A DNA stretch of 64,000 bases from Brachyspira intermedia PWS/A (GTDB lineage: Bacteria; Spirochaetota; Brachyspiria; Brachyspirales; Brachyspiraceae), in the NCBI RefSeq assembly GCF_000223215.1, contig NC_017243.1:2852001-2916000 (forward strand). Reading direction: 5' to 3'. Positions 7,618 to 55,248 of the stretch are shown one piece after another. How positions within the stretch are numbered: the stretch's first letter is position 1; each line of letters opens with the position of its first letter. The position numbers and the translations under genes are program-made. A model generated the notes under the pieces. That model made no database searches. It was given only the letters and a program-made list of their open reading frames with translations, and was not told where the DNA came from.

Positions 7618-7628
7618 AGTTTTAAAAT

Positions 7629-7872
7629 TTATTTACATACCCCGCCCTTTATTCTTTAGAACTTTTATTTAAATATAAAACTTCATTTTTAATTATTAAT
7701 TTATTTAGAAAATAAAGCACCCGCCCAAGTTGTTTTTAAATTTAAAAATCTATTTAACGCACGGTTGACTAAACTTAATAATATAATTAATTTGTAATTA
7801 TTAATAATCTATATTTATAACTTTACTCTGCGTGCGGTGAGAAGATTAAATATATAAATAAATTTGTACTAA
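7629..7872 (+). repeat. Intergenic nested inverted-repeat element, copy A (truncated)
   Basis: Begins with the type-1 end ttacataccccgccctttA, then gcacccgcccaag, then aacgcacggt, an AT-rich centre, and ctctgcgtgcggtgag; the far half (gggtgggaagc and the type-2 end) is missing. It is over 90% identical by eye to copy B over the shared part. It lies between two convergent gene ends (6808-7617 plus and 7945-8727 minus). No coding capacity seen. Confidence 0.8.
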
Positions 7873-7883
7873 ATGTTATAATA

Positions 7884-7919
7884 TAAAAATGATTCCCTAT
7901 AAAAAATTTACAGGGAATC
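7884..7919 (-). terminator. Intrinsic terminator of the 7945-8727 lipoprotein gene
   Basis: On the minus strand, gattccct / agggaatc stem (8 bp, AT-rich inner extension, 7891-7919) followed by atttttata, 25 bases after the stop codon. Confidence 0.75.
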
Positions 7920-7944
7920 AATCTTTAAATTAATAACAATTATA

Positions 7945-8727
7945 TTAATTTAATTTATCTGCATATACATTATAAAGAGTGCTGTCTATCGCACCACTTT
8001 TAGCAGGAGTTTCAGATGTAAGTTCTACAGTGGTTACTTCTCCTTTTATTACTTGATAAGGACCTTTTAACTCTCCTGTTGTACTACCGCCTTTGCTATT
8101 TTCCAATGTTATACCAATAGACTTACCAGTTGCTGGTTTTGCAAATACTTTGAATGATTGTCCATTAGCAAAAGTACTTGATAATAATTGATCTGTTTCC
8201 CAAACTAAATTATTAATATTTATAAAACCTGTATTATTTTTAAACTCTATTACACCATAATTATTAATGAAATTACCTATAGTATCAGAGATTGTTTTTC
8301 CCATACCATTAGGATCATAATAATCCATACTATCAGTTTTAGAAATAATAAAAACAGTTTCATCTGTATCCATTATAGTATCTCCATTTTCTATAGGAGT
8401 AAATATATTTCTGCTTTTTAACTCTGTACCTATTTTAAGCTTTACATAAACATAATCTCCATTATCAGGTATTGTCACTTCTTTATTAACCTGATCAAAT
8501 GAATCAAGTGTAAATGTCTGATTGTTGAATCTTATAGATTCTATATCAGATACAATTCCACCTATTAAATCATCTTTTACTTTAATTTTTATAGTAGCTT
8601 TTTTTGAACCTGATGGCGGTGTAGTACCTTCTCCTCCAGGATTGGTTGGATTATTACTACTGCAGCTTATAGCAAATAATGATAATGAAACAACTAATAA
8701 TAAAATTTTTAAAAATTTTTTGTTCAT
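7945..8727 (-). CDS. Predicted lipoprotein of unknown function
   Basis: 260-residue lipoprotein. Signal peptide MNKKFLKILLLVVSLSLF followed by the lipobox AIS-C (Cys at about residue 22), then a Ser/Asn/Pro/Gly-rich tether (SSNNPTNPGGEG). The body is beta-rich with no domain I recognise. I chose the ATG at 8727 because aaggag stands eight bases upstream; a 14-codon upstream extension in frame would put extra residues before the signal peptide. It is monocistronic, with its own terminator, and is flanked on both sides by copies of the same intergenic repeat element. Likely anchored in the outer or inner membrane facing periplasm or surface; which one cannot be told. Confidence 0.75.
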   Translation of the reverse strand: MNKKFLKILLLVVSLSLFAISCSSNNPTNPGGEGTTPPSGSKKATIKIKVKDDLIGGIVSDIESIRFNNQTFTLDSFDQVNKEVTIPDNGDYVYVKLKIGTELKSRNIFTPIENGDTIMDTDETVFIISKTDSMDYYDPNGMGKTISDTIGNFINNYGVIEFKNNTGFININNLVWETDQLLSSTFANGQSFKVFAKPATGKSIGITLENSKGGSTTGELKGPYQVIKGEVTTVELTSETPAKSGAIDSTLYNVYADKLN

Positions 8728-9158
8728 AATAGAACGCTCCTTAAATAAAAAATTTATAATATACCTCATAGTACCTTTAATTGTTTTGGCTTTATGAGAT
8801 AAAAAGCTAAATTTATAATTTTGAACTACATTTCGAACATTAGTATTTATAATAATATAATTTTTTGTATATGATTTATGAATAAAATAAATATTTGATT
8901 ATTAAAAAAGATAATGATGTGAATAATAAATTGAAAGATAAGAATAAAAAATTAGATAGATATATTAGATGCGATGCGATGCGATGCCTATATCAAATAA
9001 ACAAAACATTTTTTACTTTTACCTTTTTTGTATTTTTCGTTATTATAAGATAAATTATTATAAAGTCAATAAGATTTTCATATAAAATAATCATTTTATT
9101 TAATAAATACATTAATTTTTTATATAAATATAATTATTTTGTGTTTATGTAATAAAAA
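8728..9158. other. AT-rich gene-free stretch upstream of the lipoprotein gene
   Basis: No open frame of interest. It must contain the promoter of the minus-strand lipoprotein gene, but no single -35/-10 pair stands out. The only ordered structure is the GATGC array described separately. Confidence 0.5.
8968..8987. repeat. Short tandem repeat, four units of GATGC
   Basis: Four uninterrupted copies of the pentamer GATGC in an otherwise very AT-rich spacer. Copy-number change is plausible for such a tract, but it lies about 240 bases from the nearest start codon and in no open frame. Confidence 0.85.
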
Positions 9159-9486
9159 TTATTTACATACCCCCCCCTTTATTCTTTAGAACTTTTATTT
9201 GAATATAAAACTTCATTTTTAAATATTAATTTATTCAGAAAATAAAGCACCCACCCAAGTTGTTTTTAAATTTAAAAATCTATTTAACGCACGGTTAGCT
9301 AAACTTAATAATATAATTAATTTATAATTATTAATACATCTATATTCATAACTTTACTCTGCGTGCGGTGAGAATATAAAAATACAAATAAATTTTGGGT
9401 GGGAAGCTATAATTTCAAAATAAATAAAAAAGAAAAATTAATTAAATATTATTAATTAAACAAAAAATATATAGGGCGGGATTTAA
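9159..9486 (+). repeat. Intergenic nested inverted-repeat element, copy B (full length)
   Basis: Complete copy in the same orientation as copy A. In order: type-1 end (atttacatacccccccctt, with C in place of G), gcacccacccaag, aacgcacggt, AT-rich centre, ctctgcgtgcggtgag, gggtgggaagc, and the type-2 end agggcgggatttaaaat. The C-rich left half and G-rich right half can pair as nested arms. It lies between the start of the lipoprotein gene and the 3' end of the Smr gene. Confidence 0.85.
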
Positions 9487-9502
9487 AATAAAGCAAAAAA
9501 TA

Positions 9503-24034: not shown

Positions 24035-24682
24035 TTAACCCTTAATTCTAGCATTTAATTTAGATAAAGCTGTTTTAGTAAAATATACCTCATCAGCATA
24101 AAATAAAGGATGTATAGACATACTGTCTGCATTTACAAGCTTTAAATCTTTGATGTTTCTTAAAGATAATAATAATTTATTATAATTATCTCCTAAAGAT
24201 TCATCTTTACCTACTACAAATGCCACCTTTCTTGTATTTGGTTCTTTAACCTTACTTATAAAACTAGCCATTCTTTTTGTTTTTGGAGCGTCAAAAGTAA
24301 AATCCTCAAAAACTTTAAGAACATTGCTTCCATATTTTAAAGATAAAACAGACAATAGAGCCTTACGTTTCATTTTCTTTGGCAATCTGTAGCTATAATC
24401 TCTAGGCTTTGGAGTATGTGTTTTACCACCGCCTACCCAAATTGGGGATCTAGTAGAACCTGCTCTAGCTCTTCCTGTGCCTTTTTGTCTCCAAGGCTTT
24501 TTACCGCCTCCTGAAACTTCTGCTCTTGTTTTTGTAGAGTGAGTTCCCTGACGTCTGTTAGCTAATTCATTTTTGATTGCTTCGTAAAGTAGATTATTGT
24601 TAACTTCTGATTTAAATATCTCGTCAACAATCTCTAAATTGCCTACGCTATCTCCATTTTCATTTAGTATTACTACTTCCAT
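24035..24682 (-). CDS. rplD: 50S ribosomal protein L4
   Basis: Large-subunit protein whose extended loop reaches the exit tunnel, 215 residues. Signatures: ANRRQGTHSTKTRAEVSGGG, KPWRQKGTGRARAGSTRSP and the LRNIKDLKLVNADSM region. In E. coli L4 represses the S10 operon; whether it does here is unknown. Twenty-eight bases after rplC. Confidence 0.96.
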   Translation of the reverse strand: MEVVILNENGDSVGNLEIVDEIFKSEVNNNLLYEAIKNELANRRQGTHSTKTRAEVSGGGKKPWRQKGTGRARAGSTRSPIWVGGGKTHTPKPRDYSYRLPKKMKRKALLSVLSLKYGSNVLKVFEDFTFDAPKTKRMASFISKVKEPNTRKVAFVVGKDESLGDNYNKLLLSLRNIKDLKLVNADSMSIHPLFYADEVYFTKTALSKLNARIKG

Positions 24683-24710
24683 TTTATCATCCTGTTATTA
24701 TTTCACTCTA

Positions 24711-25364
24711 TTAATTCATTGAGTTTTTCTTCTTGTTACGTTTCTTTACTGCTGATGTTAATTTCACTATGCTATTTATAGCACCTGGTATAGCACCTTT
24801 TATCATAATCAAATTATCATCTGGTCTTATTTCAACTACTTTTAAGTTTTGTATAGTAGTCAAAGTATTACCCATATGTCCAGGCATACCTTTACCTTTC
24901 CATACTCTTGCAGGGTAGCTGTTACAACCTATAGAACCTGCTCTTCTTCTAAAGTTAGAACCATGGCTCATAGGACCGCCGTCATAATTATGTCTTTTCA
25001 TTACACCGGCAAAACCTCTACCTTTACTCAAAGAACTAACATCTATAAAATCGCCTGCTTGAAATATATCTGCTTTAAGCTCTTGACCTACTGTATAAGA
25101 GCTAGCATCGTCCATTCTGAACTCTTTTAAATATTTCTTAGGCTCTAAATTTGCTTTTTTAAACTGACCTATTTGAGGCTTTTTTAAATGCTTTTCTTTC
25201 ACGGCACCATAGCCTAATTGAATAGCACTGTAGCCATCTTTCTCATTATCTCTTATCTGCATAACTGTGCATGGTCCAGCCTCTACAACTGTTACTGCTA
25301 TAGCATTACCAGTCTCATCGAAAACTGTTGTCATACCCAATTTTTTGCCAATTATTCCTACCAT
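24711..25364 (-). CDS. rplC: 50S ribosomal protein L3
   Basis: Early-assembly large-subunit protein near the peptidyl-transferase centre, 217 residues. Start MVGIIGKKLGMTTVFDETG; signatures SKGRGFAGVMKRHNYDGGPMSHGS and GHMGNTLTTIQNLKVV, in part FAGVMKRHNYDGGP. 104 bases after rpsJ; nothing notable in that gap. Confidence 0.96.
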   Translation of the reverse strand: MVGIIGKKLGMTTVFDETGNAIAVTVVEAGPCTVMQIRDNEKDGYSAIQLGYGAVKEKHLKKPQIGQFKKANLEPKKYLKEFRMDDASSYTVGQELKADIFQAGDFIDVSSLSKGRGFAGVMKRHNYDGGPMSHGSNFRRRAGSIGCNSYPARVWKGKGMPGHMGNTLTTIQNLKVVEIRPDDNLIMIKGAIPGAINSIVKLTSAVKKRNKKKNSMN

Positions 25365-25854: not shown

Positions 25855-27081
25855 TTATTCTAATATTTTTGTTACAACACCGTTACCTACTGTTTTACCA
25901 CCTTCACGTATAGCGAATCTTTGTTTTTCTTCCATAGCGATTGGAGTGATAAGCTCGATAGTTAAGTTAGCGTTGTCACCAGGCATAATCATTTGTGCAC
26001 CTTCTGCTAAGTTGATTACTCCTGTTACGTCTGTTGTTCTGAAGTACATTTGTGGTCTGTAACCGCTTACGAAACCGCTGTGTCTTCCGCCTTCTTCTTT
26101 TTTCAAGATATAAACTTCAGCTTCGAATTTTTTATGAGGTGTAATTGTACCTGGTTTAGCCAATACTTGTCCTCTTTCTACTGCTTTACGTTCAATACCT
26201 CTTAAAAGACATCCAACGTTATAACCAGCTATACCAACAACTTCTTTCTTGAACATTTCTACACCAGTACAAGTTGTTTTTTGAGTAGGTCTGATACCAA
26301 CGATTTCAACTTCATTACCTTTCTCAATTTTACCTCTTTCAATTCTTCCTGTAACAACTGTACCTCTTCCAGGAATTGAGTATACGTCTTCGATTGACAT
26401 TAAGAAGTCTTTATCTACTTCACGTACTGGATCTGGAATATATGTATCTAATGCATTTAATAAGTCTAATATACATTTACAATCTGGATCAGTTCTAGGA
26501 TCTTTTCCTGCTTCGATTGCTTGAATAGCTTTGATTGCAGAGCCTCTGATGATAGGAGTTTTAGAACCATCGAAACCATAGTGGTCTAATACGTCTATTA
26601 CTTCTGCCTCTACTATTTCAGCCATTTCTGGGTCATCTAATTTATCACATTTGTTTAAGAATACTACGATGTAGTTTACACCTACTTGTCTAGAAAGAAG
26701 TACGTGTTCTTTTGTTTGTGGCATTACACCGTCTTCTGCTGATACTACTAAGATAGCACCGTCCATCTGAGCAGCACCTGTAATCATGTTTTTAATGTAG
26801 TCAGCGTGACCTGGACAGTCTACGTGTGCGTAGTGTCTGTTGTCAGATTCGTATTCTACGTGTGATGTTGCGATTGTTAATATTTTTGTTGGGTCTCTTC
26901 TACCTTGACTTTCAGAAGCTTTTGCTACTGAGTCATAAGCAACTTTTTGTACTGTTGCTGGGAACATAGCAGATGATACTGCTGTTATTGCTGATGTTAA
27001 TGTTGTTTTACCATGGTCAACGTGTCCGATAGTACCAACGTTTACGTGTGTTTTATTACCTTCGTAAGTTCCTTTAGCCAT
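25855..27081 (-). CDS. tuf: Elongation factor Tu with unusual switch I
   Basis: GTPase that delivers aminoacyl-tRNA to the ribosome, 408 residues against ~394 in E. coli. G1 GHVDHGKT (19-26), G3 DCPGH (88-92) and G4 NKCD (about 143-146) are intact, and domains 2 and 3 look normal ([13 protein letters not shown], GMxDNA-type [11 protein letters not shown]). The switch I region differs: where other EF-Tus read RGITI, this one reads KILTI (66-70), preceded by about seven extra residues ([10 protein letters not shown]). The key Thr (69) and the following TSHVEYE are kept. Located after fusA (75-base gap), the normal str order. It is the only tuf in this window. Confidence 0.95.
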
Positions 27082-37120: not shown

Positions 37121-39385
37121 TTAACTTTTATACCAAGAAGGAGGATTACTTTCTATAGGCGAATTTGAAAAAGCATATTTCATATTAACATTTTCTCCTA
37201 ATTTCCAAGATTCTAAATCCTGATTGAAATTAATACAGTTATCAAATAAAAATGATATATATTTAATATTAGACATATTCCATTTATATAAAGGCTGATT
37301 GAAATTTGAAGCCCATTGAAACATTGAGGTTATAGATTCAGCATTACTCATATTCCAATCATTTAAAGGCTGATTAAAACTTTTTGCATACCTAAACATA
37401 GCATCTGCATATTTTAATTTGCTTATATTCCATTTAGAAATATCCTGATTAAAAGAATATGCACTTTCAAACATAAAGCTCATAATTTCTACATTACTAA
37501 CATTCCAATTACTTAAATCATTATTAAAAATAATACAATGTGAAAACATAAAATTCATATACTTCACATTAGAAACATTCCAATTATTAAGAGGCTGATT
37601 AAATCTAGTACAGCCTTCAAACATATAAGCCATATCTTCTACTTTAGATACATTCCAATTTTCTATATTATGATTAAAATATACAGCTCCTTTAAACATA
37701 TTATGCATATCTTCTACATTTGAAGTATCCCAAGTTTCAATGCCGTCAAATTTTTCAAGTTTTGAATTCTGAAATAAACCAGACATATCAGTTATCAAAC
37801 TAGTATCTATTTTATCATATTTTACTTTTTCTTTTATTAGTTTTAATAATTCTATTTTGTTTTTAGGTTTATATTTTTCATTATCTTTTAATTCTATTTT
37901 TTTAGCTTTTTTATATTCTGTTATTATACTTTCTTTATTTTCAATTAGTTCTTTTAATTCATCATAATAAGTATTTTCAAGTTTCTTTATAAAATCTTTA
38001 AGTTTATTATATTTCAAAACTTCTTTATAAACTTCTTTTATATTGCAGTTTTCAAGCATATCTAAAAGTTTTTTTCTATTATTTCCTTTAGATAAAAAAT
38101 AAATATTTAATATAGACTTAACATTCTTAAAAGAAGAAGCACCAGAAAAAATATCATCAATAAAGCAAGCCTCATTAATAATCCAATTTTCTATAGAATA
38201 ATTAAAACTTTCTGCACCGCTAAACATATATGACATATAAATTGCACTAAAAACATTCCAGCTTCCAATATCCTGATTAAAACTTTTTGCATTGAAAAAC
38301 ATATAGTTCATATATAAAACATTAGAAGTATCCCAATTATTTAAAGGCTGATTAAAATTATAAGCATTCTCAAACATACCAAGCATATTTTCTGTTTTAC
38401 TTACATTCCAATTATTAATATCTTGATTAAAATTTTCTGCCTCAAAAAACATACATTTCATATTTACTACGTTTGAAGTATCCCATTTGTATAATGGCTT
38501 ATTGAAACTTTTACATTTACAAAACATATTACTCATATCTTTTACATTACTTGTATTCCAATTATTTATATCAGAATTAAATCTATATGCCTCTTCAAAC
38601 ATAGAACGCATATTTTCAACTTTAGAAGTGTCCCAATTATTTAAAAGCTGATTAATTTTTTCTGCACATTTAAACATGCTGTTCATATCCGTAACATTAG
38701 AAACATTCCAATCATTCAAACTCTGATTAAAATTCTTACATCTCTCAAACATACTATACATTTTAGTAACATTAATTACATTCCAATTACTAATAGATTG
38801 ATCAAAATTTTCTGCCTCAAAAAACATGCAGCTCATATTCTCAGCATTAGATGTGTTCCAACTATTTAAATCCTGATTAAATTTTTTACATCCGCTAAAC
38901 ATTCCGTACATATTTTTAACATTACTTACATTCCAATTATTCAAAGGCTGATTGAAAGATGATGCCCCATAAAACATAAAACTCATATTTTCAACATTAG
39001 ATACATTCCAGCTATTTAAATCTTGATTAAACTTCTTGCAGTCAAAAAATATACTGTTCATATCTTTAACTTTATAAACATTCCAATCACCTATATACTG
39101 ATTAAATTCTTCAGCACCGAAAAACATACAAGCCATATTCTCAACATTAGATACATTCCATTTTGATATATCGCTATTAAATGTTCTGCAATTAAAAAAC
39201 ATATCATGCATATCTATAACATTAGAAGTGTCCCAATTTTCTATACCATCAAATTTTTTTCTTTTTGATTCTTTGAATAATACAGTCATATCATTTATTA
39301 AACTTGTATCAATATCGCCCAAATATATACTCTCATCTTTTACTAATTCTTTTAATTCTTCTTTAGTCTGAGGCTTGTATTTCAT
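37121..39385 (-). CDS. DUF285 (BspA-like) leucine-rich repeat protein, duplicated module
   Basis: 754 residues built of ~24-25-residue repeats of the form MxxMFxxaxxFNQxLxxWNxSNVxx, the DUF285 (PF03382) pattern of BspA-like surface proteins. There are two modules: about 1-420 (about 15 repeats) and about 497-754 (about 8 repeats), each opening with the same cap (KYKPxxKxEL..L, then DTSLIxDMxxLF and KFDGIExWDTSNV). A Lys/Glu helical linker joins them. No signal peptide or membrane anchor is seen, which is odd if the protein is surface-exposed; it may be cytoplasmic or use another route. Start ATG 39385; no clear Shine-Dalgarno. Convergent with the OmpA-type gene across the repeat cluster. Confidence 0.85.
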   Translation of the reverse strand: MKYKPQTKEELKELVKDESIYLGDIDTSLINDMTVLFKESKRKKFDGIENWDTSNVIDMHDMFFNCRTFNSDISKWNVSNVENMACMFFGAEEFNQYIGDWNVYKVKDMNSIFFDCKKFNQDLNSWNVSNVENMSFMFYGASSFNQPLNNWNVSNVKNMYGMFSGCKKFNQDLNSWNTSNAENMSCMFFEAENFDQSISNWNVINVTKMYSMFERCKNFNQSLNDWNVSNVTDMNSMFKCAEKINQLLNNWDTSKVENMRSMFEEAYRFNSDINNWNTSNVKDMSNMFCKCKSFNKPLYKWDTSNVVNMKCMFFEAENFNQDINNWNVSKTENMLGMFENAYNFNQPLNNWDTSNVLYMNYMFFNAKSFNQDIGSWNVFSAIYMSYMFSGAESFNYSIENWIINEACFIDDIFSGASSFKNVKSILNIYFLSKGNNRKKLLDMLENCNIKEVYKEVLKYNKLKDFIKKLENTYYDELKELIENKESIITEYKKAKKIELKDNEKYKPKNKIELLKLIKEKVKYDKIDTSLITDMSGLFQNSKLEKFDGIETWDTSNVEDMHNMFKGAVYFNHNIENWNVSKVEDMAYMFEGCTRFNQPLNNWNVSNVKYMNFMFSHCIIFNNDLSNWNVSNVEIMSFMFESAYSFNQDISKWNISKLKYADAMFRYAKSFNQPLNDWNMSNAESITSMFQWASNFNQPLYKWNMSNIKYISFLFDNCINFNQDLESWKLGENVNMKYAFSNSPIESNPPSWYKS

Positions 39386-41551: not shown

Positions 41552-41640
41552 ATATTATTATGTTTACCAAATTATTAACAGTAATTTATCAATTATCAGC
41601 CTATATTATGTAATTTATAAAATTTTAGTTTTTTGTTTTA

Positions 41641-41852
41641 TTTTGAATCCCCGCCCTTTTAAATTTATAGTATTAATTTCAATTAAAAATTTTATTTTAT
41701 CAAAAACTTAAATTAGAAAAAGCACACCCACCCAAGCGCTATTTAAATTTATAATGCATATACCGCATGTTGAATAGATTTTGATATATAATAAAATTGA
41801 ATTGATAATTAAACTTATATTTTTAGTTTCGCTCACCATGCGTTAAAAATAA
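41641..41852 (+). repeat. Intergenic nested inverted-repeat element, copy C (diverged, partial)
   Basis: Contains the C-rich end (gaatccccgccctttt), gcacacccacccaag, a decayed central arm (accgcatgttga) and gctcaccatgcgttaaa; the outer right arm is missing. Lies between the convergent ends of the nuclease-like gene and argH. Confidence 0.7.
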
Positions 41853-41871: not shown

Positions 41872-41910
41872 AAAAAAACAAGAGCACCATTTTTTTATAG
41901 TACCCTTGTT
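41872..41910 (-). terminator. Intrinsic terminator after argH
   Basis: On the minus strand aacaagggtac ... gtgctcttgtt followed by a run of Ts; about 35 bases after the argH stop. Confidence 0.75.
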
Positions 41911-51850: not shown

Positions 51851-51871
51851 TAAAACTAAAAATTTTGCTTT

Positions 51872-52083
51872 TATTCCGCACGCAGAGTAAAACTAATAAT
51901 ATAATTTTAATAATAATTCAAATATTATTATATTATAAAATTCTGTTCACCGTGCGTTAAATAGATTATAAATCTAATTAAAACTTGGGCGGGTGCTAAA
52001 ATTTATAATCAAGCTGTAAAGATAAGTAAGACTAGGATTCAAGATAAAGCTATAAACTTTAAGGGGCGGGGTATGTAAGTAAT
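51872..52083 (-). repeat. Intergenic nested inverted-repeat element, copy D (partial, inverted)
   Basis: In the opposite orientation to A and B: ccgcacgcagagtaaaa, AT-rich centre, ttcaccgtgcgttaaa, cttgggcgggtgc and the type-1 end aaggggcggggtatgtaa. The type-2 half is missing. Lies between convergent gene ends. Confidence 0.8.
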
Positions 52084-52140
52084 CTCTTTATTTATTTTTA
52101 TCAACTTTTCCCGCCGCAAAAGTTGCAAAAGTGCAATTTA

Positions 52141-52326
52141 TAATTAAGATAAACTATATTATTTTTATTAACATTATATTATAAATTTAGTTTACCGTAC
52201 ATTAAATGAATTTCAAAGTGAGTTTAAATTTGTGCGAGTGTAAAAATTCTAATTAATCAGAAAAAATAATTAATATTAAAACTCAAGATAAAGTTATAAA
52301 TTTTAAAGGGCGGGCTATGTAAGTAA
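52141..52326 (-). repeat. Intergenic nested inverted-repeat element, copy E (decayed)
   Basis: Same orientation as D and directly after it: degraded tttaccgtacattaaat, gtgcgagtgt and a well-kept type-1 end aaagggcgggctatgtaa. Shows that the elements can occur in tandem and decay. Confidence 0.7.
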
Positions 52327-52440
52327 TTTGTTTTATTTATTAACTTCTATATTTAAAAAAATTAAAATATAAACATATTAAAGTTACACTGTGAATATAA
52401 AAAATTCTTAATATAAACACAGTATAACTTTAATAAAAAA

Positions 52441-53073: not shown

Positions 53074-53145
53074 AAAAAATCCCTCACTTATTTTAAACTT
53101 TAATTTAGTATAGTACAAGTAATATTTTTTTCAAGTAAATAAAAT

Positions 53146-53452
53146 TTATTCTAACTCCCCGCCCTTTATATTTTATTATTTTATTTAGTCATTTTAACTT
53201 TATTATATTTACTAATTCAATTAGAAATTTTAACGCCCACCCAAGATTTTTTTAAATTTTAAAATCTACAAACCGCACGCAGAGTAAAATTAAAAATATA
53301 TGCTAATTTATAATTATAATTTAAACAAAATATAAAATTTTACTCACCGTGCGCTAAATATATTATTAATCTAATCAAAAGTTGGGTGAGTAATTTAAGC
53401 TTCAAAAAATAATTAATTTTATCATTAAAAAATCTTAAAGGGCTGGATTTAT
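53146..53452 (-). repeat. Intergenic nested inverted-repeat element, copy F (full length)
   Basis: taactccccgccctttata, cgcccacccaag, aaccgcacgcagagtaaaa, AT-rich centre, ctcaccgtgcgctaaa, gttgggtgag and agggctggattta. Both C-rich and G-rich halves are present, so the nested arms can be paired. Located between the LUD gene start and the 3' end of flaB. Confidence 0.8.
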
Positions 53453-53469
53453 AAAAAGCTATAAAAGCA

Positions 53470-53516
53470 AAAAAATAGCCAGTCCCATTGTAAAAATGAG
53501 ACCAGCTATTTTTAAA
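53470..53516 (-). terminator. Strong intrinsic terminator of flaB
   Basis: Minus strand: aaaatagctggtctcatt / aatgggactggctatttt hairpin (17 bp with three wobble or mismatched positions), followed by a T run. It lies right after the flaB stop (53541). Confidence 0.85.
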
Positions 53517-54680: not shown

Positions 54681-54914
54681 GCATTTTTTTCTCTTTTTTC
54701 TTAAAAAAAAATCAAAATAAGTACTATATCATACATATACTACGTAAAATCTAGAAAAATTATAAATTATGACTATTTATACCTAAAAAACATTCAATAT
54801 AATCATCAAAATTATAAAAATAATATCTATTCTATCGTTTTTTTGATTTTTTAAGCATTATATTTTTTAATCTTTAATCATTTTATTAATTTTTTTATAA
54901 TTTTTGATAAAATT

Positions 54915-55248
54915 TTATTTTAACTCCCACCCTATAAATTTTTTGCTATTTATAGTCCATAAAATACTAATTTGTTTGTTAATAATTTCTGTTATTTTAG
55001 CTTCCCACCCTAGCATTTTTTAATTTTTTACTCTTATACCGCACGCAGAGCAAAATAATAAATATATGATTAATTATTAATTTAAATACTACTAGGATAT
55101 AAAGAATCATGCATCGTGCGTTGAGTCAATAAAAAATTTAAATAATGCTTGGGCGGGTGCTTTAATCACTGAGAAGGTAAAAAAGAAAATTAAATTAAAA
55201 TTTCATAGTGATACATTGAAAAAATAAAGGGAGGGGTATGTAAATAAA
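54915..55248 (-). repeat. Intergenic nested inverted-repeat element, copy G (full length)
   Basis: Reads type-2 end taactcccaccctata, agcttcccaccct, taccgcacgcagag, AT-rich centre, tcgtgcgttgag, gcttgggcgggtgc and type-1 end aaagggaggggtatgtaaata. Both halves are full, 334 bases. It is the only copy between divergent genes, in the flaB to 55533 region. Confidence 0.85.

Follow-up and report, generated by a model that had tools for sequence, protein, structure and literature searches.

Do repeated elements that lie past the ends of genes serve to end transcription, or are they found there for another reason? The question is raised by a stretch of 64,000 nucleotides of the Brachyspira intermedia PWS/A chromosome (positions 2852001-2916000 of this genome, G000; hereafter the window), in which a preliminary description had recognised seven copies, A to G, of one repeat. 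According to it, A, C, D and E lie between convergent genes, B and F beside one 3′ end, and G between divergent genes, and all seven placements were confirmed. The copies are listed here with their scores against R1, a profile of 211 positions built from the sequences of 23 copies, together with the features that adjoin them.

7627-7838, minus strand: copy A, 125.5 bits, in a convergent spacer, second arm missing; outer box CCCGCCC at 7641, inner box CCCGCCC at 7720, box b CGCACG at 7758, box a CGTGCG at 7831
7890-7920, minus strand: terminator-like hairpin, called from sequence, of the gene at 7945-8769, between copy A and this gene
9157-9492, minus strand: copy B, 123 bits on one strand and 66 bits on the other, in a tandem spacer beside one 3′ end; all six boxes, at 9170, 9250, 9288, 9362, 9397 and 9474
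41637-41844, minus strand: copy C, 93.4 bits, in a convergent spacer, adjoining the 3′ end of an argininosuccinate lyase gene (Pfam)
41877-41910, minus strand: the lyase gene's intrinsic terminator, located between this gene and copy C
51876-52083, plus strand: copy D, 144.2 bits, a half array in a convergent spacer; box a at 51877, box b at 51951, inner box at 51987, outer box at 52064
52100-52135, no strand assigned: fragment of a second dispersed repeat (ATCAACTTTTCCCGCCGCAAAAGTTGCAAAAGTGCA), occupying the position where box a of copy E is expected
52131-52328, plus strand: copy E, 74.4 bits, in a convergent spacer
52380-52431, no strand assigned: hairpin of the convergent spacer, located at a LUD-domain gene's 3′ end
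53144-53456, minus strand: copy F, 93.1 and 76.6 bits, in a tandem spacer, adjoining the 3′ end of a flagellin gene; boxes CCCGCCC at 53158, CCCACCC at 53236, CGCACG at 53274, CGTGCG at 53348 and GGGTGAG at 53384, the last being a worn inner box
53474-53510, minus strand: the flagellin gene's intrinsic terminator, located between this gene and copy F
54912-55248, plus strand: copy G, 95.9 and 40.6 bits, in a divergent spacer; all six boxes, at 54926, 55004, 55040, 55115, 55151 and 55229

When copies are aligned in one orientation, many of them prove to be near-palindromes. The full unit is symmetric: an outer and then an inner box, both GGGNGGG, make up each arm, and the two arms enclose box a followed by box b (CGCACG/CGTGCG), with an AT-rich filler and steps of about 78-36-74-36-78 bp. 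Among 142 units, the step from a to b measures 73.8 bp (SD 0.8, n=107), the one from b to the inner box 36.4 bp (SD 1.0, n=92) and the one from the inner to the outer box 77.6 bp (SD 1.9, n=73). The middle letter of GGGNGGG is mostly C or T, both in the inner box (C 61, T 38, A 3, G 2) and in the outer one (C 66, T 22, G 2, A 1), and two such boxes on one strand could possibly form a G-quadruplex. In the window, A, C and D are halves, while B, F and G are near-palindromes of about 335 bp, larger than the preliminary description had it, and each of four motifs exceeds all 100 shuffles. Between copies A and B, which are 93% identical, lies the gene at 7945-8769; in G005 this place is occupied by another gene and a single element.

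Regarding the tandem pair, D and E do share one orientation, and E is decayed in its middle with an intact outer box, as had been described: GGGCGGG is kept at 52308-52314, and changes have affected box b, now CGTACA, and the inner box, now TGTGCGAGT. In two relatives (L201 and L203), both the inner and the outer boxes of copy E are intact, hence its middle decayed recently in the B. intermedia lineage. As regards the idea that this end of E is either selected or the newest part, a recent decay of the middle fits selection or chance equally. The second dispersed repeat, with its core AAAGTTGCAAAAG and an inverted AACTTTT, adjoins several elements (52100-52135 in the window; L005, L008, L016 and L017).

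The family is far larger than the window suggests. A BLAST search with copy D gave 56 matches in G000, and more than 100 element clusters are present in this genome (107 among the best 150 R1 candidates). The 75 clusters found in 824 kb of it comprise 29 simple full pairs, 18 single halves and, for the others, longer mixtures. In Brachyspira hampsonii, a tandem array of at least seven units was observed (L139, 5629-7903), with steps of 325-353 bp and matches that alternate in strand.

The preference for gene 3′ ends claimed from the window was assessed on these 824 kb, of which 464 kb had been picked as element-rich. Their 705 spacers are 100 convergent, 501 tandem and 104 divergent, and the 70 that bear the 75 clusters are 27 convergent, 27 tandem and 16 divergent. 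Convergent spacers are thus clearly over-represented (27/70 vs 100/705; Fisher odds ratio 4.8, p 6e-8), which bears the claim out. Part of the deficit of tandem spacers is due to operons. The convergent bias persists after length matching but is weaker: near the origin, among native spacers of at least 100 nt, elements are found in 13/34 convergent vs 31/174 other spacers (odds ratio 2.9, p 0.011), and when convergent are compared with divergent spacers alone it is again weaker (p 0.04-0.08). In 24 near-origin tandem spacers, the element lies at a median of 53.5 nt from the upstream stop and 124 nt from the downstream start. None of the 75 clusters lies mostly within an open reading frame of at least 150 aa, the elements being extragenic and mostly in tandem (unidirectional) or convergent spacers. 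The suggestion that insertion was tolerated only in such places is nevertheless too strong, since 16 divergent and 27 tandem spacers carry an element, i.e., 43 of the 70 are not convergent. It also overlooks a pattern with respect to the origin: convergent spacers bear an element in 27/74 cases within 500 kb and in 0/26 beyond.

Do the elements then end transcription, as was first suggested? That they are terminators or structured RNAs is in agreement with their 3′-end bias and with the strong RNA folding of the full copy B (z -4.7). Moreover, 33 of 79 near-origin gene ends facing an element lie less than 35 nt from it (22/54 convergent, 11/25 tandem) and have no room for a separate terminator, so that an influence of the element on the ending of transcription is possible there. 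Where at least 35 nt are available, however, near-origin gene ends possess a terminator-like hairpin before the element in 25/46 cases vs 1/46 after shuffling (17/32 convergent and 8/14 tandem ends, with 1 and 0 in shuffled sequences); for ends without elements, a hairpin followed by T is found in 52/76 convergent and 65/193 tandem cases. Own terminators are likewise retained beside copies C and F, whereas few such hairpins (G+C hairpin plus T run) are located inside elements (14/150 strands vs 39/150 shuffled, one shuffle each). As for the folding of copy B, a palindrome must fold so, and half copy D folds no better than its shuffles (z -0.82). RNAalifold proposed 12 pairs for 23 copies, of which one has a two-sided, compensatory change; the arms do not covary, those of the same element being 55.8% alike vs 58.0% for arms of different elements (48 elements), and the centre base of the inner box disagrees between arms in 25/35. 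No Rfam match other than one tRNA was obtained in the window. RNAalifold, the fold score of the half copy and the tests on arms and centre bases speak against an RNA or hairpin function, and a transcription-ending role is unsupported as the main one; we consider terminators or structured RNAs extremely unlikely. We are thus faced with an intergenic repeat placed like a terminator yet not behaving like one in its sequence.

A different picture emerges at the scale of the chromosome. PMC3163572 reports that B. intermedia PWS/A has a 3,260-bp plasmid, that its chromosome file was permuted to the skew origin (position 0) and that dnaA is unlinked to this origin. Our skew samples are positive up to 1.65 Mb and negative beyond in G000, where dnaA is at 1.33 Mb, and the S10 operon (ribosomal protein L2), which lies in the window on the minus strand, is directed away from position 0. 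Using a parS pattern with one mismatch allowed, we located a close pair of parS-like sites in G000 (14.7 and 15.3 kb) and a single pair of this kind in three other complete genomes (G004, G007 and G009); the reversed pattern gave no match. Isolated parS-like sites were also called in G000 (1.57 and 1.64 Mb) and in G009 (3.08 Mb). An origin at dnaA, with which the elements would look terminus-centred, was rejected on account of the G000 skew, the direction of the S10 operon and the presence of the parS-like pairs; skew samples also support the origin in G004 and are noisy or too sparse to place it in G007 and G009. The pair in G000 (L070, 14726-15331), whose sites are 590 bp apart, adjoins a gene with a TonB-like C-terminal match, and neither ParA nor ParB was found among the eight neighbouring proteins scanned.

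The elements gather around this origin. The 107 clusters of G000 have their centre at 3.255 Mb on a chromosome of 3.305 Mb (resultant 0.60), and the difference between the circular mean of the elements and the parS-like pair is -64 kb (SE 52) in G000, -58 kb (SE 50) in G004, +0.2 kb (SE 49) in G007 and +64 kb (SE 61) in G009. In all four genomes the elements are therefore centred on the parS-like pair to about one standard error (offsets of 0.2-64 kb), and distant from dnaA; these genomes are related and many of their sites share ancestry. In the quarter of the origin-terminus distance nearest to the origin lie 68/107 clusters in G000, 62/94 in G004 and 63/97 in G007, where the best 150 hits were used and the gradients are those of well-scoring copies, and 32/48 in G009, whose list is not truncated (96 matches among 150 scored candidates). 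In a regular sample of 20 windows of G000, an element is present in 6 of the 7 windows that lie less than 500 kb from position 0 and in 2 of the 13 others (p 0.004). Counted per spacer, elements occupy 67/470 near and 3/235 far spacers, the near set including stretches picked as element-rich and the pooled count leaving out the regular windows 165001 and 3135001, which overlap with larger stretches; with such an excess per spacer, the supply of spacers does not explain the centring. Per kb, 71 clusters in 564 kb near vs 4 in 260 kb far amount to an about eightfold difference in this partly chosen sample. The second dispersed repeat, with 8 matches near the origin and 0 far in the sample, is too rare and travels with the elements, and hence provides no independent control of the gradient, to which a generally more changeable origin half may contribute. 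Polar KOPS-like sites were set aside in view of the absence of a strand bias by replichore among clusters with a 30-bit difference between strands (13 minus and 9 plus on one side, 20 minus and 13 plus on the other).

If the boxes are what matters in these elements, they should be kept where the rest is lost, and this is indeed observed at orthologous places. Copy C is found at the lyase 3′ end in 5/5 relatives with a lyase region compared, and copy F at the flagellin 3′ end in 5/6 relatives. Among the rows compared (D, 8 of 9, L200 being left out; C, 5 of 6, G004 being left out; F, 6 of 9, with G004 and two second copies left out), G/C cells deviate from the consensus of the set in 7/200 box cells vs 38/160 other element cells for D, 10/125 vs 21/120 for C and 17/234 vs 59/162 for F. 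Variable columns, a count less sensitive to shared ancestry than that of cells, agree with this (7/25 box vs 16/20 other G/C columns for D, 7/25 vs 13/24 for C, 11/39 vs 25/27 for F). Across 13 spacers flanked by the same genes in G025, changed G/C positions amount to 58/372 in boxes vs 268/751 elsewhere (p 7e-13), three of these spacers having heavily altered boxes (16/23, 11/11 and 16/41). The box letters are thus conserved beyond the rest of the element. According to PMC3163572, intergenic DNA of B. intermedia avoids G and C, so that their retention in the boxes points to selection. Copying between sites also shapes the sequence, since the tandem neighbours D and E have changed in concert in L199, L200, L204 and L207.

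The family was detected in 23 of 26 Brachyspira genomes and is absent from G001, G003 and G019; it is therefore not essential to the genus. Searching 84,980 species genomes for one exact 16-base box returned 106 stretches, and among the 80 of them listed, 44 are from Brachyspira, all with R1 matches, which occur in none of the 36 others. In the open-licence literature, we found no paper on Brachyspira with repetitive extragenic palindromic elements, a description elsewhere being possible, and the repeat sections of two Brachyspira genome papers mention no such family.

Several known systems resemble the elements in part. Their distribution, rich at the origin and scarce far from it, is of the Noc/SlmA type, with many palindromic sites and here at least 100 clusters (counted, in three of the four genomes, on the best 150 hits). 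In Bacillus subtilis, as described in PMC4331003, about 70 Noc-binding sites (NBS) are spread over most of the chromosome and lacking near the terminus; the SlmA-binding sites (SBS) are those of Escherichia coli. Each NBS is a single short site, whereas the Brachyspira element has six boxes spread over about 335 bp, a gene 3′-end bias and a sharper centring. The matS sites of E. coli likewise define one chromosome region; PMC3330122 gives them as 13 bp long, present in 23 copies within 800 kb and bound by MatP in the Ter macrodomain, i.e., at the opposite end of the chromosome, and their size and architecture differ from those of the Brachyspira arrays. With parS, bound by ParB, the elements share the place on which they centre, and they differ from it by their sequence and by their number, at least 100 clusters on a megabase scale vs two parS-like sites per origin. 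Finally, REPs are dispersed extragenic palindromes of 20-40 bp which, as described in PMC3733652, carry GTAG or CGTC tags, are often accompanied by a RAYT and prefer unidirectional or convergent spacers. The Brachyspira elements have the extragenic placement and the inverted pairs of REPs and BIMEs without the tag or RAYT: the consensus of their unit (about 335 bp, or half of it) contains neither GTAG nor CGTC, the unit has six boxes and is parS-centred, and no Y1 transposase was found in seven genomes. The boxes GGGNGGG and CGCACG are probably also of another sequence than NBS and SBS.

The explanation that we tentatively prefer, and regard as quite possible, is that proteins bind the elements, which would mark out or organise the half of the chromosome around the origin; in their distribution they bear some resemblance to Noc or SlmA sites, and they would mostly be tolerated past gene ends. 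The boxes would be recognised by one or more DNA-binding proteins, a nucleoprotein complex being assembled in at least 100 places; the origin half would thereby be marked or folded, for nucleoid organisation, cohesion of the origin domain or a timer of the nucleoid-occlusion type, and the sites would settle past gene ends because they disturb neither coding sequences nor promoters there. The binding protein and the function are what we infer from the order, spacing and conservation of the boxes, the lack of covariation between arms, the 3′-end preference and the parS/origin centring in four genomes. A more ambitious and rather doubtful version is that of an origin-domain system proper to Brachyspira, in which a protein reading the six-box array, present in at least 100 copies in a symmetric gradient round parS, would build an origin macrodomain or a nucleoid-occlusion zone, the system having arisen or been lost within one spirochete genus whose dnaA moved from the origin. 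To our knowledge, no set of DNA sites marking the origin side of the chromosome has been described for spirochetes, and few bacteria have such sites known. The family thus offers a ready list of sites and a second handle on the start of replication in a genus with dnaA away from the origin.

The main rival is an old REP- or MITE-like repeat with an insertion bias, selfish or formerly mobile, which would spread by means of an enzyme. Its boxes would have been kept for movement, and regions near the origin or beyond the ends of genes would favour its insertion or survival. The many copies, the inverted pairs, the B. hampsonii array (L139) with its steps of about 350 bp, the copies flanking single genes (43 pairs) and a preference for unidirectional and convergent spacers akin to that noted for REPs in PMC3733652 are all consistent with it. 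So is the D/E gene pair, adjacent in 14 of 26 species, of which 9 have elements and 5 a bare spacer of 38-71 bp, mostly hairpin; beside the elements, the hairpin is kept in 7 of 9 rows (relatives or self), L204 and L207 being those that lack it. Neither a target duplication nor a clean empty site was seen at this pair, the relatives being too diverged to decide; the element arms are inverted, and occupied and unoccupied spacers are too diverged to reveal ends or duplications. Moreover, a Y1 transposase (PF01797) was found in 0/7 Brachyspira genomes searched vs 5/14 known genomes for the control, the places are old, as copies C and F indicate, their box letters have been kept, and the near/far difference (in a partly chosen sample) would exceed a plain gene-dosage effect. 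A repeat of this kind is in our opinion unlikely to account for the family.

The two other candidates fare less well. Elements could be supercoil sinks, a gyrase or another topoisomerase putatively binding the arrays past gene ends and relaxing transcription-driven supercoils, as proposed for the BIMEs of E. coli; the 3′-end and convergent preference is in line with this, as is the binding of gyrase at the 3′ ends of open reading frames reported for E. coli REPs in PMC3733652. A gyrase role alone does not account for the parS centring and the 16 divergent spacers, and we hold it to be improbable. Copies might alternatively act as recombination junctions, i.e., as ends for gene gain and loss in element-gene-element arrangements. 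Gene order is broken at 15/28 element spacers vs 37/130 against G025 (p 0.014) and at 12/16 vs 33/109 against other relatives (p 0.001), copies A and B flank a gene missing from that place in G005, and in G022 two elements round one gene (24622-24949 and 25927-26254 of the joined L257 and L258) share their left half and differ in the right one, as if an exchange had occurred in the centre of the element. However, with native spacers of at least 60 nt the excess of breaks is not significant (p 0.17 and 0.07), and direct orientation does not predominate among the 43 pairs round a single gene (19 vs 24 inverted); palindromy makes orientation doubtful, two assignments disagreeing for two pairs. 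Cassettes resembling the attC sites of integrons were dropped on the same count, and we judge recombination junctions very improbable, while putative binding sites of the origin half remain the reading that we prefer.

Two further repeat-containing reading frames lie in the window. The one at 37121-39385 encodes 754 aa and contains many 75-nt repeats, and the one at 692-2746 encodes 684 aa and has motifs of 33-35 nt repeated at a spacing in multiples near 99-100 nt, presumably resembling ankyrin repeats.
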